Shown: piece by piece, positions 1,143 to 23,581 of the stretch
Layout of the letters: each line of letters begins with the position of its first letter
How positions within the stretch are numbered: position 1 is the first letter of the stretch
Source of the DNA: Marinobacter daqiaonensis
GTDB taxonomy: Bacteria > Pseudomonadota > Gammaproteobacteria > Pseudomonadales > Oleiphilaceae
Length of the DNA: 64,000 nucleotides
Assembly (NCBI RefSeq): GCF_900115285.1
Contig: NZ_FOYW01000001.1
Span: 1,337,616-1,401,615, forward strand
Reading direction: 5' to 3'
Notes under the pieces: generated by a model
What the model was told of the DNA's origin: nothing
The model's input: the letters and a program-made list of their open reading frames with translations, nothing else
Database searches by the model: none
Translations under genes and position numbers: made by a program

Positions 1143-1274
1143 GGGCTGACTTCCTGTTAGCTCGGCGATAAAGGAAAAGCGGAACCCTGAATTACCGTTA
1201 TCTGGTATCCACCTCTTTTCAAGCAGTGTAGTCCGAATTTCCGGCCCTGCCCGAACCGCTGGCGGGGTACCACC

Positions 1275-1302
1275 TTGAAATCACTACCGGCTGGCATAAG
1301 CT
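1275..1302 (+). promoter_or_regulatory. Candidate sigma-70 promoter of the encapsulin operon
   Basis: TTGAAA at 1275-1280 and TAAGCT at 1297-1302 are separated by 16 bp and lie about 60 bp upstream of the ferritin start. The -10 is a weak match. A 7-bp inverted pair (TTTCAAG / CTTGAAA) brackets the upstream region. I saw no convincing Fur or IscR box. Confidence 0.3.
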
Positions 1303-1364: not shown

Positions 1365-1757
1365 ATGGCAGGGGCAAGCGAGAGTTACCACGAGCCTATT
1401 GAGCAACTATCGGAAAAGACCCGGGACATGCATCGCGCCCTGGTCTCGGTCCAGGAAGAGCTTGAAGCCGTCGACTGGTATCAGCAGCGCGCGGACGCCA
1501 CCGACGATGAAGAACTCAAGGGCCTGCTGCTTCACAACATGCGGGAGGAAATCGAACACGCCTGCATGGTGCTGGAATGGTTGCGGCGCAACCATCCGGA
1601 TTTCGCCGAACAGATGAAGATCTACCTGTTTACCGAAAAGCCGATTCTCGAGGCGGAAGAGGAAGACGCGGATCTCAGCGACGCCTCCCGGTCCGGCCCC
1701 ACCAAAAGCCTGAACAAATTCACCATTGGTTCTATGAAGGGTGAGTCAAAATCATGA
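1365..1757 (+). CDS. Encapsulated ferritin-like protein (EncFtn cargo)
   Basis: 130-residue iron-oxidising ferroxidase expected to be packed inside the encapsulin shell encoded next. EncFtn family proteins form an open ring decamer that oxidises Fe(II) and depend on the shell to store the mineral. The ferroxidase residues known from Rhodospirillum rubrum EncFtn sit at the same numbers here: E32, E62 and H65, with W38 and Y39 nearby. An acidic linker (about 97-110) leads to a C-terminal cargo-loading peptide, FTIGSMKG (119-126), close to the usual L-T-I/V-G-S-L-R/K-G pattern. A GGAG ribosome binding site precedes the ATG. The stop overlaps the encapsulin start by 4 bp (ATGA), which indicates translational coupling. 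Identification is very secure. Confidence 0.95.
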   Translation: MAGASESYHEPIEQLSEKTRDMHRALVSVQEELEAVDWYQQRADATDDEELKGLLLHNMREEIEHACMVLEWLRRNHPDFAEQMKIYLFTEKPILEAEEEDADLSDASRSGPTKSLNKFTIGSMKGESKS

Positions 1758-2560
1758 GCTATCTCAATCGTGGAAACGCCTCCTTCTCCAAAGACATCTG
1801 GGAAAACATTGATCAAGCGGCGGTCGGAGCCGCCCGGGAAGTTCTCACCGGGCGCCGGTTCCTGGAAGTGGACGGCCCCTATGGTGTGGGCCTGACGGCC
1901 ATCGAGGCGGGCGAAGAAGGATACTGCCGCCAGCCGAAGCCGGATGAGGCCGGTGCCGTGCTCAGCCGGGCCAGCGCGATTCCGATGCTGCGCAAGGGCT
2001 TCGGACTGAGCGTGCGCCGCATCGAAGGCTACGAGTCCATGGGCCAGCCCCTGGACCTGCGGTCGGTTGAGGACGCGGCGGAGGCCGTGGCCCGGCGTGA
2101 GGAAGAGTTCATCTACTACGGCCAGCCGGATTTCGGTCTGGAGGGACTGCTGACGGCAAAGGGCCGCAATGAGGTCCAGTGCGAGGACTGGAGCAAGATC
2201 GAGCAGGCCCTGGAGAACGTACTCACCGCGGTCAATCATCTGGATGACAATGGCTTTCACGGGCCTTACGCCCTGGCACTGTCACCAACCTGGTACAACC
2301 TGCTGTTCCGCCGTTACGAAGGCACCGACATGCTGCAGCTCGAGCATCTCAAGCGCCTGTGCGAACTGGGCGTCTTCAAGGCGGAAATCGAGGGTGCCGT
2401 ACTGGTGGATGCCCGGGTTGGCCGCATCATTATCGGCCAGGACCTGATGACCGGATACTCCACCAACGACGGCATCCACCACCAGATGTTCGTCAGCGAG
2501 AGCCTGGTATTGCGGGTCGAGGAACCCGGCGCCATCTGCACGCTTACCAAGAAAGCGTAA
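1754..2560 (+). CDS. Family 1 encapsulin shell protein
   Basis: 268 residues, the usual length of a family 1 encapsulin (HK97-fold shell, about 265 aa). It begins MSYLNRGNASFSKDIWENID, typical of the N-terminal helix that binds cargo peptides on the inner face. It continues through the P-domain and E-loop region (FGLSVRRIEGYESMGQPLD) to the conserved end segment with GYSTNDGIHHQMFVSESLVL. It is coupled to the ferritin gene by an ATGA overlap and followed 6 bp later by a flavoprotein reductase, so the three probably form one transcript. It should assemble into a closed icosahedral compartment storing iron oxidised by EncFtn. The shell flavin-binding Trp seen in some members was not checked. 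Confidence 0.95.
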   Translation: MSYLNRGNASFSKDIWENIDQAAVGAAREVLTGRRFLEVDGPYGVGLTAIEAGEEGYCRQPKPDEAGAVLSRASAIPMLRKGFGLSVRRIEGYESMGQPLDLRSVEDAAEAVARREEEFIYYGQPDFGLEGLLTAKGRNEVQCEDWSKIEQALENVLTAVNHLDDNGFHGPYALALSPTWYNLLFRRYEGTDMLQLEHLKRLCELGVFKAEIEGAVLVDARVGRIIIGQDLMTGYSTNDGIHHQMFVSESLVLRVEEPGAICTLTKKA

Positions 2561-2566
2561 GCCGTT

Positions 2567-3598
2567 ATGGCCGCCGATTCCGATATTACCCGGACGCGCC
2601 AAAGCGCCCGCCAGTCCCTGGTGGAACTGGAGGATCTGAGCCGGCGCCAGCGGGAGTGTGGCGATCAACAGCTGCGCTCCACCCTTGCTGGCATCAACCG
2701 GCGCAAGTCTGCCCAGACCTGGCGACTGCTGGAATGGCTGCGGCGACAGGAAACCGGTGCCGGTGCCGGTGCCGAAGCTCCGCCGCTGACAGGCGGGTCA
2801 GATCCGGCCAGCGCAGATGATGGCAACGGTGAGGCGGCGCCCGCGCCGGAAGCCGAACCCGGGCCGTCACAGACCGGCGCCCTCACCCGGCCGGCAACCA
2901 CCGCCGAAGGCGTGGCGGTGATGGAACGCCGGGATGTGACTCCGGATCTCATCATTTTCAGGGTGCCCCGGCCCCAGGACTTCCAGTTTGTGGCCGGCCA
3001 GTCGGTCAAGGTGGGCCTGGGCGGCATCACCCGTTCATACTCCATCGTCTCCGCGCCCCACGAACCGTTCCTGGAGTTTTTCGTGGAGCTGGTGCCCGGT
3101 GGCCGCATGTCCGAGAAGATGCGCCAGATGCGGGCAGGAGACCCCGTGACACTGGGCACGCCGAAGGGCGGCCTGCGGTTTGATGAAAGCTACCCCCATC
3201 AGCTGATGGTGGCCACAGTGACGGGCATCAATCCGTTCGTGAGTATGCTGCGGGACTACCTGCACCGGGGGAAGAGCGGCCACCATTTTCACCTGCTGCA
3301 CGGGGCCAGCTACCAGAGAGAATACGGCTACCGGGAAGAGCTCGAGGCACTGGCCGCGGCCCACCCCGACCTGCTGACCTACGTGCCCACCGTGAGCCGG
3401 CCGGAGGAGGCCGCCAACCAGGGCTGGACCGGGGCTACCGGGCGGGTGGACACCCTGGTGGAAGAGTATCTGTCCCGACACAACCTGACCAGTGGCAACA
3501 CGCTGATCTACGCCTGCGGCCATTCCGGCATGCTGGCCGCCGTTGGCCAGTATGTGGCGCCTCTGGAGTTCCAGCTGAAAACGGAAAGCTATGACTAG
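2567..3598 (+). CDS. Ferredoxin-NADP reductase-like flavoprotein with N-terminal extension
   Basis: 343 residues. The C-terminal part (about 113-343) is an FNR-type module. RSYS (156-159) is the FAD-binding motif. TGINPFVSML (219 on) stands in for the usual GTGIAPF pyridine-nucleotide motif with its first glycines altered. CGHSGM (317 on) is the C-terminal NAD(P)H motif. The first 65 residues are charged and probably helical and match nothing I recognise; residues 65-110 are a Gly/Ala/Pro/Glu-rich flexible linker. The gene begins 6 bp after the encapsulin gene, so a role in encapsulin iron chemistry is likely, for example supplying electrons to reduce and release stored iron (inference). No cargo-loading peptide is visible. 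The stop TAG lies beside the inverted-repeat element at 3621. Confidence 0.85.
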   Translation: MAADSDITRTRQSARQSLVELEDLSRRQRECGDQQLRSTLAGINRRKSAQTWRLLEWLRRQETGAGAGAEAPPLTGGSDPASADDGNGEAAPAPEAEPGPSQTGALTRPATTAEGVAVMERRDVTPDLIIFRVPRPQDFQFVAGQSVKVGLGGITRSYSIVSAPHEPFLEFFVELVPGGRMSEKMRQMRAGDPVTLGTPKGGLRFDESYPHQLMVATVTGINPFVSMLRDYLHRGKSGHHFHLLHGASYQREYGYREELEALAAAHPDLLTYVPTVSRPEEAANQGWTGATGRVDTLVEEYLSRHNLTSGNTLIYACGHSGMLAAVGQYVAPLEFQLKTESYD

Positions 3599-3620
3599 TG
3601 TAGTGTCCCGGACGGGATAC

Positions 3621-3796
3621 TAGTGTCCCGGCCGGTTAATTCGCTGACCTATTGCTTGCCGCTGGCGACTCTGGCCAAGGCGTCAGTCCGCAGGTGTGGT
3701 GGTTCCACATCAAGGGCTGACAACACAGGTCCAGAGTCGCCAGCGGCAAGCTTTCAGGGGCTCAGTAGGTCAGCGAATTAACCGGCCGAGACACTA
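3621..3796. repeat. 176-bp inverted-repeat element (MITE-like)
   Basis: The outer arms 3621-3650 and 3767-3796 are reverse complements at 29 of 30 positions. The inner arms 3655-3674 and 3731-3750 are perfect over 20 bp. The ends read TAGTGTC...GACACTA. A partial direct copy of the left tip (TAGTGTCCCGG) also lies at 3601-3611, giving a tandem tip. The element sits between the stop of the flavoprotein gene and the stop of the convergent Crp/Fnr gene (3794 lies inside the right tip), so it may also end transcription from both sides. A shorter relative is at 42453-42507. No transposase is nearby. Confidence 0.8.
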
Positions 3797-4567
3797 GGGC
3801 AACGATGCAGACGACGGGTGCGGGTCAGCCAGCAGCAGCTCACTCACCGGCTGCTCAAGGTAGCACCCGTCGAAACCCGCCACTGTCTCCAGGCCCTCGA
3901 TGTCCAGCAATACCACATGGGAGTTGCCGGTTTCCAGCAACCCTTCCGTCCGGAATTCCTGGAAAGTACGGCTCACGTGCACCGCGCTGAGCCCGAGGGC
4001 ATCCGCCAGCACACCCTGGCTCAGAGGCAGGGAAAGGTGATTCTCCACCTGGGCGTTGGTGCGCTGCAGGCGATGGGAGATTTCCACCAGGAAATGGGCC
4101 AGCTTCTCCCGGGCGGAACGGCGGCCGAGGTTCACGAGCCTCTCCAGCAGAATCGCCTGATCCCGTGCGGTAATCATGAAGATGGTGCTGCACAGCGTCA
4201 CTGAGCTGGCGAAAACCTGGGCCAGATGGGACTTTGGAAAGGGGCAGAGTTCGGCATCACTGAGGGCGATCATACTGGAGATGCGGGTCTGGAAGGCGAA
4301 TTCCCGCAGGCCCACGATGTCGCCGGGCACATAGACATCCAGCACCTGGCGGGTGCCGTCCTGCAGGTCACGGAAGGCGCAGACCCAGCCTTTCCTGATG
4401 GTGTAGAAGCCGTCGGATTCGTCTCCCTGGCTCCAGATAATGGCGTTCTTGGTCCAGGTGCGCGGGCCGTCCTCCAGCGAGAGTAAAAGTCGCCTGTCCT
4501 TTTCGCTCAGTTCTGCGTAAGACTCAAAATGCCTGACGATGCAACTCTCTCCAACACCACTGCTCAT
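3794..4567 (-). CDS. Crp/Fnr family transcription regulator (paralogue 1)
   Basis: 257 residues from the ATG at 4567, chosen because GGGAG lies about 7 nt upstream and because the paralogue at 5525-6298 then has exactly the same length. An N-terminal cyclic-nucleotide-binding-like beta roll contains YVPGDIVGL; a long dimerisation helix follows (LERLVNLGRRSAREKLAHFL); then a winged helix-turn-helix (LADALGLSAVHVSRTFQEF). The N-terminus has one Cys in ESCIVRH, not the multi-Cys cluster of Fnr, so an iron-sulfur cluster is unlikely. The effector is unknown. The last codons and the stop fall inside the 3621-3796 inverted repeat. The 5' region is shared with the paralogue, suggesting common regulation. 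Confidence 0.88.
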   Translation of the reverse strand: MSSGVGESCIVRHFESYAELSEKDRRLLLSLEDGPRTWTKNAIIWSQGDESDGFYTIRKGWVCAFRDLQDGTRQVLDVYVPGDIVGLREFAFQTRISSMIALSDAELCPFPKSHLAQVFASSVTLCSTIFMITARDQAILLERLVNLGRRSAREKLAHFLVEISHRLQRTNAQVENHLSLPLSQGVLADALGLSAVHVSRTFQEFRTEGLLETGNSHVVLLDIEGLETVAGFDGCYLEQPVSELLLADPHPSSASLP

Positions 4568-4618
4568 TTCCACTCCCTTAAACACACCCGGCAGGATCGC
4601 CGCGCCCGTGGGAAGTGT

Positions 4619-4697
4619 GAATGCTTTCGCGCTCTTACTCCTACAACCTAAGTTATCGCTTATCAAAACTCCCGGTAGTTACTTTCTCGGAGCATTC
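4619..4697 (-). promoter_or_regulatory. Conserved upstream region of Crp/Fnr paralogue 1
   Basis: This stretch aligns almost without gaps with 6351-6428 upstream of paralogue 2. Shared blocks include AGTGTGAATGCTT, AACCT, GTTATC and AACTCCC. GAATGCT (4619-4625) and AGCATTC (4691-4697) form a perfect 7-bp inverted pair at its edges. It is a likely shared promoter/operator, possibly autoregulated. Seen directly as sequence similarity; the function is inferred. Confidence 0.55.
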
Positions 4698-5524: not shown

Positions 5525-6298
5525 TCAGCACGCTGTCTGTCTGTCTGTCTGTCTGTCTGGGCCAGTAAGCAGGCCGGCGGTTGATTCCAGGTAAAAATCA
5601 TCAAAACCCGCCACCGCTTCCAGACCTTTGATATCCAGCAGCTTGACGTGAGCGTTGTCCGTGCTCACCAGCCCTTCCAGGCGAAACTCCCGGAAGGTAC
5701 GGCTTACGTGCACCGCGCTGAGGCCGAGGGCGTCTGCCAGTACCCCCTGGCTCAGGGGCAGGGACAGGTGACTCTCCACCTGGGCATTGGTGCGCTGCAG
5801 GCGGTGGGAAATTTCCGCCAGGAAATGGGCCAGTTTCTCCCGGGCGGACCGGCGGCCGAGATTCACCAGCCGCTCCAGTAAAACCGCCTGGTCCCGTGCG
5901 GTAATCATGAAGAAAATGCTGCTCAGTGTCCGCGACCTGGAAAAAATCTCGGCCAAATGGGACTTTGGGAAGGCGCAAAGCTCGGCCTCCCTGAGGACGA
6001 CCACGCTGGTGATGCGTTTCTGAAAGGCAAATTCCCGCAGGCCCACTATGTCACCCGGAACATAGATATCCAATACCTGCCGGCTGCCGTCCTCCAGGTC
6101 ACGGAAGGCACAGACCCAACCCTTTTTCAGGGTGTAGAAGCAGTCCGATTCCTCGCCCTGATTCCACAGGATGGCATTTTTTGACCACTCGCAAGGCCCA
6201 TCTTCAAGGGAAAGTAAAAGTCCCTCGTCTTTTTGGTCAATCTCGCCATAGGATTTGATGTGTCTGACGATACAGCTTTCGTCTGAATTATTTGTCAT
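5525..6298 (-). CDS. Crp/Fnr family transcription regulator (paralogue 2)
   Basis: 257 residues from the ATG at 6298 (GGGAAGTG ribosome binding site just upstream). It is closely similar end to end to the regulator at 3794-4567: the same ESCIVRH start, YVPGDIVGLREFAFQ effector-domain strand, LVNLGRRSAREKLAHFL helix and LADALGLSAVHVSRTF recognition helix. They are clearly duplicates that kept both coding and upstream sequence. The C-terminal tail is encoded by a tetranucleotide repeat (5533-5556), giving DRQTDRQTAC, so copy-number changes would alter only the last residues. It is divergent from the dehydrogenase operon starting at 6582 and could regulate it (inference only). Confidence 0.88.
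   Translation of the reverse strand: MTNNSDESCIVRHIKSYGEIDQKDEGLLLSLEDGPCEWSKNAILWNQGEESDCFYTLKKGWVCAFRDLEDGSRQVLDIYVPGDIVGLREFAFQKRITSVVVLREAELCAFPKSHLAEIFSRSRTLSSIFFMITARDQAVLLERLVNLGRRSAREKLAHFLAEISHRLQRTNAQVESHLSLPLSQGVLADALGLSAVHVSRTFREFRLEGLVSTDNAHVKLLDIKGLEAVAGFDDFYLESTAGLLTGPDRQTDRQTAC
5533..5556. repeat. Tetranucleotide repeat (CTGT)x6 in the 3' end of a regulator gene
   Basis: Six uninterrupted CTGT units on the plus strand lie inside the last codons of the Crp/Fnr paralogue 2 gene. Slippage would shift the reading frame after residue about 247 and change the C-terminal tail and stop position. Confidence 0.9.
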
Positions 6299-6350
6299 TT
6301 CACTTCCCTCAAGGGAACACGTCGGTATCGCCGCGTTCATCGGGCAGTGT

Positions 6351-6428
6351 GAATGCTTCCGTGCTCCGCCCCTATAACCTGCGTTATCTCTTGTTGTAAC
6401 TCCCCATGATAGCGTCGTTGGAACATTC
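6351..6428 (-). promoter_or_regulatory. Conserved upstream region of Crp/Fnr paralogue 2
   Basis: Counterpart of 4619-4697. GAATGCT at 6351-6357 and AACATTC at 6422-6428 form the imperfect outer inverted pair, with the same internal blocks. It lies between this regulator and the divergent dehydrogenase operon, so it could control both directions. Confidence 0.5.
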
Positions 6429-6547
6429 ACCGTAGCAAGTTTATTGGGAGACTGAAAAGACAGTTGCTGGCCATGGCTGTAGTTGCCCCCGCCCCCTTTT
6501 GTATCCTTACACGGCCCAGCACTTGGAAAAAGCGCCGATAAGACCTA

Positions 6548-7673: not shown

Positions 7674-8646
7674 GTTGACGATGGTGCAGGCCATTAACCT
7701 GGCCCTGGAACAGGAAATGGAAAAGGATGACAGCGTCCACGTGCTGGGCCAGGACGTCGGGGTTGACGGCGGTGTCTTCCGGGTGACCGATGGTCTACTG
7801 AAGAAATTCGGCGAAGACCGTGTCATGGACACACCACTGGCGGAGTCCGCCATCGTGGGCATGTCGGTTGGCATGGCCATCGCGGGCCTGAAACCGGTGT
7901 GTGAACTCCAGTTCTCCGGGTTCAGCTACTTTGCCTTTCACCAGCTCGAAGGCCAGGCCGCGAGGATGCGCTGGCGTACCCGGGGACGCTACAACGTGCC
8001 CATGGTGTGCCGCATGCCCTATGGCGGCGGTGTACGGGCCCTGGAGCACCACTCCGAAAGCCGGGAAGCCTACTACGCCCATACCCCGGGCCTGAAAATG
8101 GTGATTCCCTCCGGGCCCCGCAATGCCCGCGCCCTGCTGGTGAGCGCCATGCGCGACCCGGACCCGGTGATTTTCTTTGAGGGCAAGGCCATTTACCGCG
8201 CGTTCAAGGAGGAAGTGCCGGACGAGGAGGAGACCATTCCCCTGGGGGAGTCACAGATTGCACGGGAAGGCGATGATCTGACCATTATCACCTACGGCGC
8301 CATGACGCATCGGACCCTGGAGGCGGCGGAAAAGCTGGCTGAGGAAGATGGCATCGAGGCGGAAGTCATCGATCTGCTGTCCATTTCGCCCCTGGACGAC
8401 GAAAAGCTGAGCGAGTCGGTCCGCAAGACCGGCCGCGTGGTCATTGTTCATGAAGCCCATCGCAGCTTTGGCCCGGGCGCGGAAATCATCGCCCGTATCA
8501 ACGAGAAATCCTTTTATTACCTGGAAGCGCCGATCCAGCGGGTTACCGGTTACGACGTGATCACCCCGTATTTCGCCCGGGAGCAGGATTACATTCCCGA
8601 TGTCGCCCGCATTGTCACAGGCGCACGCCAGGCCATGGCCGACTAG
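7666..8646 (+). CDS. pdhB: 2-oxoacid (pyruvate) dehydrogenase E1 component, beta subunit
   Basis: 326 residues, usual for E1 beta. Starts MAELTMVQAINLALEQEME. Contains GQDVGVDGGVFRVTDGL, the cofactor-binding and subunit-contact region, then FAFHQLEGQAARMRWRTRG and PYGGGVRALEHHSES, and a transketolase C-terminal domain with IVHEAHRSFGPGAEI. It pairs with the alpha subunit into an alpha2beta2 heterotetramer. The start overlaps the alpha gene by 8 bp and the stop lies 12 bp before the E2 start, so the three are co-transcribed. Confidence 0.92.
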   Translation: MAELTMVQAINLALEQEMEKDDSVHVLGQDVGVDGGVFRVTDGLLKKFGEDRVMDTPLAESAIVGMSVGMAIAGLKPVCELQFSGFSYFAFHQLEGQAARMRWRTRGRYNVPMVCRMPYGGGVRALEHHSESREAYYAHTPGLKMVIPSGPRNARALLVSAMRDPDPVIFFEGKAIYRAFKEEVPDEEETIPLGESQIAREGDDLTIITYGAMTHRTLEAAEKLAEEDGIEAEVIDLLSISPLDDEKLSESVRKTGRVVIVHEAHRSFGPGAEIIARINEKSFYYLEAPIQRVTGYDVITPYFAREQDYIPDVARIVTGARQAMAD

Positions 8647-23427: not shown

Positions 23428-23581
23428 GGGAGCTATCCTTTTCCCACAATGAAGACCGGCACTCCCACGATGGGACCGTGCGGCGTTCACAACAAGTGGA
23501 CTGTTCCCCCAAAGCGTAGACGAAGCTTCCGGTTAATGCGCGGGCCTACCCACCCCACGGCTCTTGGGTTATCGTATCAAC

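Follow-up and report, generated by a model that had tools for sequence, protein, structure and literature searches.

We have found a three-gene operon in which an encapsulated ferritin-like protein (EncFtn) and its encapsulin shell are followed by a flavoprotein of the ferredoxin-NADP reductase (FNR) type that, judging from sequence profiles, carries at its N-terminus a degenerate homologue of EncFtn that is not a ferroxidase. The operon is located in a stretch of 64,000 nucleotides of Marinobacter daqiaonensis (NCBI RefSeq assembly GCF_900115285.1, contig NZ_FOYW01000001.1, positions 1,337,616 to 1,401,615 of the forward strand), referred to here as the window. We propose that the third gene supplies the electrons for an iron-storing encapsulin, in which the degenerate domain would join the EncFtn ring as a decoy and carry the reductase inside, where iron would be released; we give this proposal an even chance of being right.

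The three genes are on the + strand. EncFtn (130 residues, 1365..1757) and the shell protein (268 residues, 1754..2560) overlap by the ATGA at 1754-1757, and the reductase gene (343 residues, 2567..3598) starts after a gap of 6 bases. This tight arrangement, described with both spacings in an initial annotation of the stretch, is borne out by the window sequence and by Pfam and TIGR family matches. The first gene matches the Pfam family EncFtn-like (PF22277, 1.2e-40) and TIGR04535 (4.5e-43, above cut-off), with PDB matches to 7oe2, 5n5f and 5da5. As in a true EncFtn, it has Glu32 (1458..1460), Glu62 and His65 (1548..1559, both + strand), plus a C-terminal cargo-loading peptide with the core FTIGSM (residues 119-124, 1719..1736, + strand). 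The three residues, pointed out in the annotation as well, are invariant across 12 aligned EncFtns, and their role as ferroxidase ligands is described in the available part of PMC5012862. The second gene is by profile a family 1 encapsulin shell (Linocin_M18 9.1e-65; NF041155 4.3e-77, 259 bits against a cut-off of 100), and icosahedral assembly is predicted. The nearest solved shells are 6nj8 and Myxococcus xanthus EncA (4pt2), against which it scores higher than against the Thermotoga (3dkt) and 7odw shells. We take 6nj8 to be a T=4 shell and 4pt2 a T=3 shell, and a shell of either type would give the reductase more room.

The third gene product is, by family assignment, an FNR/FPR-type flavoprotein, predicted to oxidize NAD(P)H with bound FAD. 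Its Pfam matches are PF00175 (2.5e-20) and PF00970 (2.6e-9), with PF22277 below threshold, and no 2Fe-2S family is among them. In the AlphaFold2 model the protein has three parts. Residues 1-64 (2567..2758, + strand), which we call the pseudo-EncFtn domain, form a hairpin of two helices (4-30 and 34-62; mean predicted local distance difference test, pLDDT, of 88-97 over residues 1-60). Residues 67-106 (2765..2884, + strand) are a disordered linker rich in Ala, Pro, Gly and Glu (pLDDT <50), and the rest (2885..3595, + strand) is a confidently modelled FAD/NAD(P) reductase module with the motifs RSYS, VTGINP and YACGHSGM. The extra N-terminus noticed in the initial annotation is therefore real, with a length closer to 115 residues than to the 110 given, since the FAD domain match starts at residue 118. 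The best Foldseek matches of the module (5tr9, 6rr3 and 1a8p) are all ferredoxin-NADP reductases, with identities of 22-26% in the first rows. It shares with bacterial FPRs (5tr9, 1a8p, 2qdx) the FAD/NAD(P) fold, the R-x-Tyr/Phe-Ser motif and a C-terminal Tyr, and differs from them, apart from the low identity, in the pseudo-EncFtn fusion and in the VTGINP of the nucleotide loop. Alongside the FAD_binding_6 and NAD_binding_1 domains, the R-x-Tyr/Phe-Ser motif was detected in 12 of the 13 operon reductases that we have found (see below); in genome G109 the Arg is replaced by His.

The evidence for the origin of the hairpin comes from several comparisons. Pfam EncFtn-like matches residues 4-63 with 0.0013 in the full-length window protein and 6.3e-5 in the domain alone, and when the N-terminal domains of the five reductases of the genus were scanned alone, four matched EncFtn-like and no other family was listed. 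BLASTP aligned the window N-terminus without gaps to the EncFtn of its own operon (27% over 55 residues, 5e-4). A profile built from the five N-termini was compared with 177,635 PDB sequences, and the first nine rows were EncFtns, corresponding to three proteins (NE0167, the R. rubrum protein with its variants, and 33bf); the E value was 1.6e-5 for NE0167 (3k6c) and 0.13-0.24 for the other EncFtn rows, the first unrelated entry appearing at 0.72. Searching whole genomes with the same profile, the best non-self match was the operon's EncFtn in all five genomes of the genus (E 0.0012-0.05), EncFtn was first in G109 (3.8e-4), and overall it ranked first, self excluded, in 6/7 genomes. Profile-profile alignment (hhalign) of the N-terminus with EncFtn gave a probability of 92 and an E of 5e-7 for the single comparison. 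We also scored the window domain with a local profile of 102 EncFtn domains: it reached 17.6 bits, and the best of 3000 shuffles reached 8.7 (0/3000 at the observed score). Across the 11 domains of the family the same profile gave seven values of E <=9e-5 and four of 0.0014-0.008, again for single comparisons. In the reverse direction, a profile of these 11 domains scored the EncFtns of all 13 operons above every one of 1000 shuffles each, with a narrow margin in G865 (13.9 against 13.7 bits). Structural comparison was less discriminating. With a model built without EncFtn rows, the best 50 of 229 Foldseek rows contained nothing but EncFtn or EncB chains; many of these come from a handful of proteins, and the best E was only 0.023. 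In VIA-align 2, EncB (Z 9.3) was mixed with unrelated hairpins scoring up to 10.2, so geometry alone was discarded as proof of the EncFtn fold and the case for homology rests on the sequence profiles.

The metal site of EncFtn has not been kept. In the place of EncFtn Glu32 the window domain has Ser17 (2615..2617, + strand), and the 11 aligned family members show S/A/S/M/V/V/N/S/T/T/T, never an acidic residue. Lys47 to Gln50 (2705..2716, + strand) occupy the places of Glu62 to His65, and in 11/11 members Glu62 is replaced by Lys or Arg, His65 by Gln and Met68 by Arg, creating a conserved Lys/Arg-Gln-Arg face of the hairpin at positions 47, 50 and 53. All three ferroxidase ligands are thus absent from the reductase N-terminus throughout the family, and the scaffold residues Leu36, Leu40 and Trp57 are retained in all 11 domains. 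In this alignment the active site has been substituted and not simply lost. The net charge has moved in the same 11 operons from -10 to -13 in EncFtn to between -1 and +4 in the pseudo-EncFtn domain. Compared with the solved proteins of R. rubrum (5da5) and Haliangium ochraceum (5n5f) and with NE0167 (3k6c), the first gene of the window is a true EncFtn and the reductase N-terminus keeps the two-helix core without Glu32, Glu62, His65, helix 3 or the loading peptide. The available part of PMC5012862 describes the metal-bearing interface of EncFtn as a four-helix bundle made of helices 1 and 2 of two subunits, reports negative patches on the decamer, and shows that E32A and E62A mutants of the R. 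rubrum protein form decamers without iron. By analogy with these mutants and with an interface built from helices 1 and 2, pseudo-EncFtn may pair with EncFtn in the absence of metal. The replacement of Glu62 by Lys/Arg and of His65 by Gln in 11/11 domains makes this a sharp prediction, and such an interface would give engineers a second loading handle.

How the reductase could reach the mineral is indicated by the distribution of loading peptides. The pattern is present in the EncFtns of all 13 operons, and none was found at either end of the 13 reductases, C-terminus included. A peptide hidden elsewhere in the reductase was also discarded, as the only occurrence of the pattern in the 13 proteins is one inside the FAD domain of G1287 that we attribute to chance. 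Peptides in EncFtn and none at the reductase ends favour recruitment by means of the EncFtn-like domain. In the mechanism we propose, the neutral-to-basic face of the hairpin would pair with a true EncFtn at its acidic ferroxidase face, with no metal needed, and the C-terminal peptide of EncFtn would bring the mixed assembly into the shell, so that the reductase would need none of its own. The flexible linker would then allow the FAD module to reach the mineral, NAD(P)H entering through the shell pores would reduce the FAD, and the ferric mineral would be reduced directly or by free flavin, letting Fe(II) exit. The electron acceptor, the preferred cofactor and the placement of the reductase are likewise part of the proposal. 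That a dead EncFtn subunit serves as adaptor to bring an NAD(P)H ferric reductase without loading peptide into mixed rings in the shell, making the operon a self-contained store-and-release iron organelle, is put forward tentatively, with slightly less than even confidence. If true, it would be a new mode of cargo loading, by mimicry of the primary cargo in place of a loading peptide.

Fpr supplies the electrons in the Fpr-Bfd-bacterioferritin iron release of Pseudomonas. As far as the available descriptions go, the likeness to the window is an FPR-type enzyme feeding electrons toward stored ferric iron (predicted in our case), and the difference is that in Pseudomonas a separate ferredoxin bridges to the store, whereas in the window a fused ferritin-like domain may dock and the operon has no ferredoxin gene. 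The initial annotation considered the release of iron from encapsulins poorly understood, which is now partly outdated. The accessible text of a 2024 review states that release is yet to be shown and then reports EncD of M. xanthus (PMC11202242), a flavin ferric reductase that resides in the encapsulin and reportedly releases iron (PMC11202242, PMC12693112). In the accessible descriptions, EncD resembles the window enzyme in being a flavin-dependent NAD(P)H reductase (again predicted for ours) tied to an iron-storing family 1 encapsulin, and is set apart by its size of ~11 kDa and its own C-terminal loading peptide, against 343 residues of FNR type, none at the ends and a pseudo-EncFtn domain. 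Many IMEF operons encode a Bfd-like 2Fe-2S ferredoxin proposed for iron release, according to the available parts of PMC8346489 and PMC6668986. It is likewise an electron-transfer protein encoded with an iron-storing encapsulin, as predicted for the window, but often has an N-terminal motif like a loading peptide, is found mostly in Firmicutes and is not an FAD/NAD enzyme, and in the same sources no EncFtn domain is described for it. Given EncD and the IMEF ferredoxins, a reductase placed at EncFtn is, by analogy, most simply predicted to be an iron-release enzyme, and the operon adds an FNR-type enzyme to EncD as a candidate for iron release from encapsulins. In our literature search we found no encapsulin operon described with a reductase of FNR type or fused to EncFtn, most subscription papers being outside its reach. 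In the portion available of PMC6934571, a Marinobacter encapsulin is placed in the ferritin-like cluster with cargo given as 'hypothetical protein/other'.

We have detected the EncFtn-shell-reductase operon, always in the same order, in 13 genomes of three families. Within the genus, the reductase was found in 5 of 124 genomes (a count that omits four weaker matches, 1e-31 to 1e-34), the shell, searched separately, in the same five, and all five loci, window included, have the three genes in order. Two of the four weaker matches, inspected by eye, are reductases with a ferredoxin domain and showed no EncFtn or shell match. A shell search over 390 genomes of the order gave two, the window and G1231, and in the latter the reductase also follows the shell; with the window counted once, 6/6 shells from the genus and order searches carry the reductase. 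In the family the reductase is present in 11/163 genomes, the six outside the genus keeping the operon order (six weaker matches are omitted, three of them uninspected). Beyond the family we found the operon in G109 and G781, from other families of the class, G781 coming from a search of G109's order (2/54 genomes). The initial annotation had proposed counting such neighbourhoods, and the same gene order in 12 further genomes, more than expected by chance, indicates that the reductase is a conserved partner of the EncFtn-shell pair. Several operons differ by eye in their flanking genes, which suggests that the operon may have been transferred as a unit. The shells with reductase cluster on their tree with modest support (71/68), for which reason we do not take this tree as proof of a single origin. 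Some EncFtn positions (e.g. 53, 54 and 67) distinguish operons that have the reductase from those that lack it, but were set aside as confounded with kinship. The orders of G233 and G158 comprise three genomes each; the former yielded a single shell match, which is the half shell already known, and the latter no match to the reductase. In a phylum sample 42/398 genomes match the reductase at <=1e-19, and the 11 loci read out of the 40 besides the window and G109 had no EncFtn or shell. The idea that the reductase is a plasmid gene was rejected: none of 322 matching plasmid records covers over 80% of the query, and in the top-ranked record (Vibrio campbellii, 31% identity) neither EncFtn nor shell was matched over the 12.7 kb read.

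The 13 operon reductases form a single group in the tree (support 100/98) against 29 others, 12 of them from a scan for relatives; a tree of seven operon members plus the full set of 34 loci from the scan gave 100/99. These 34 loci (L072-L105) are 32 titled Chloroflexi, Dehalococcoidia or SAR202, one Desulfobacterota and one 'Bacterium HR23'. They were discarded as further operons, because none has a match to the window EncFtn or shell in the stretch available, which in some ends with the contig. With genes named by eye, a formate dehydrogenase/NuoG-like protein cluster appears in 28/34 and a NuoF-like one in 22/34. Many of their FNR modules have ~250 residues.

Several observations weigh against our proposal. 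The foremost are the G109 and G781 operons, whose reductases have shorter N-termini. With the EncFtn profile, 757 and 994 of 3000 shuffles, respectively, reached their scores, and with the 11-domain profile 321 and 239 of 1000; scoring like shuffles, their similarity to EncFtn is unsupported. In the whole-genome search of G781 with the five-N-termini profile, an unrelated place (0.008) came ahead of EncFtn, which was second (0.019). These N-termini may be eroded or unrelated and, not being recognisable, mean that the operon exists without a detectable decoy; they are the chief evidence against a universal one. Within the genus, the best domain-alone score (23.1 bits) is below the Pfam gathering score of 27, a full-length Pfam scan (E up to 1) of the other four reductases did not list EncFtn-like, and in G865 the EncFtn match (0.050) has only a slight lead over an unrelated place (0.067). 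The net charge of the pseudo-EncFtn domain is -1 in G1287 and G1284, and the hairpin lacks helix 3, which contributes to the larger of the EncFtn dimer interfaces. Ancestry gives no guide to the acceptor, since the nearest outside reductases, in Chloroflexota, adjoin formate-dehydrogenase-like and NuoF-like genes. Iron storage in this genome is not left to the encapsulin alone, as two PF00210 ferritin-family genes are also present. Finally, the arrangement is rare. In a class sample EncFtn was found in 98/369 genomes at 103 places, all of which were read (13 with <=1.5 kb per side, some others ended by the contig). A shell adjoins in 21 of them, three shells running off the contig and one being half present, and the reductase follows in 2 of the 18 operons readable past the shell, those of the window and G109, which makes it the mark of a minority lineage. 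The remaining 82 EncFtn-like genes have no shell in the stretch read.

FPR-type enzymes act on soluble partners, and the reductase might accordingly be cytosolic and stay outside the shell, with the hairpin self-dimerising or binding newly made EncFtn and reduced soluble flavin diffusing through the pores. The lack of a loading peptide at both ends, the FPR-type fold with its long linker and the missing helix 3 would agree with that, but an enzyme of the cytosol would have no need of a conserved domain derived from EncFtn in which three ligand positions are altered alike in 11/11, and we consider it unlikely. A second option makes the pseudo-EncFtn domain a dominant-negative regulator of ring assembly or dosage, with the reductase reducing flavin close to the ferroxidase centre to support turnover or to deal with oxygen, rather than to release iron. 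A ligand-dead subunit could indeed cap or open a ring, and assembly without metal in E32A and E62A (PMC5012862, available part) is consistent with it; as this fails to explain why a full reductase is kept in 13/13 operons, we find it quite unlikely. The initial annotation saw in the N-terminal extension a dock for the shell itself. A helical conserved domain that could dock stands, and reductase and shell do occur in the same 5/124 genus genomes, but the hairpin is EncFtn-like and lacks the C-terminal peptide by which, in the available part of PMC8791618, EncFtn reaches the shell. Being homologous to EncFtn with its iron ligands replaced, the domain has a likelier partner in EncFtn, and docking on the shell appears very unlikely. 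That the reductase is a chance neighbour unlinked to iron storage, with a helical N-terminus that merely resembles EncFtn, is largely refuted and has almost no probability left: helical hairpins match many folds by geometry alone, and the nearest outside relatives of the module are not near encapsulins in the stretches examined, but there are 13 operons in surroundings that differ by eye, their reductases form one tree group, and in the profile searches EncFtn comes first in the PDB and, self excluded, in 6/7 genomes.

Locus L225 has, downstream of its intact operon, a second copy of the reductase end (7853-8020, an open frame of 55 residues), which may have been left by recombination. In locus L065 (5480-6886, - strand) the EncFtn reading frame runs on into the latter half of a shell of this kind, as a deletion joining the two genes would produce; this may be an assembly artefact.

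Upstream of the window operon, an element CTTGAAATCA..CATAAGCT (1273..1302, + strand) is similar in G930 and G865 and weaker in G899 and G872. It is promoter-like and could be a candidate sigma-70 or sigma-32 type promoter, although a sigma-70 scan found nothing. A Fur box there was rejected, the best candidates agreeing in 10-12/19 positions. Downstream, 21 bases past the reductase stop codon, starts an inverted repeat resembling a miniature inverted-repeat transposable element (3620-3797), with 35-nt arms that are 94% complementary and inner 21-nt arms that are 100% complementary; further copies of its 19-base core, with 3 mismatches, lie at 23530 and 42464. Convergent to the operon, on the - strand, two genes for Crp/Fnr-family regulators (3794-4666 and 5525-6430) flank an alpha/beta hydrolase gene.

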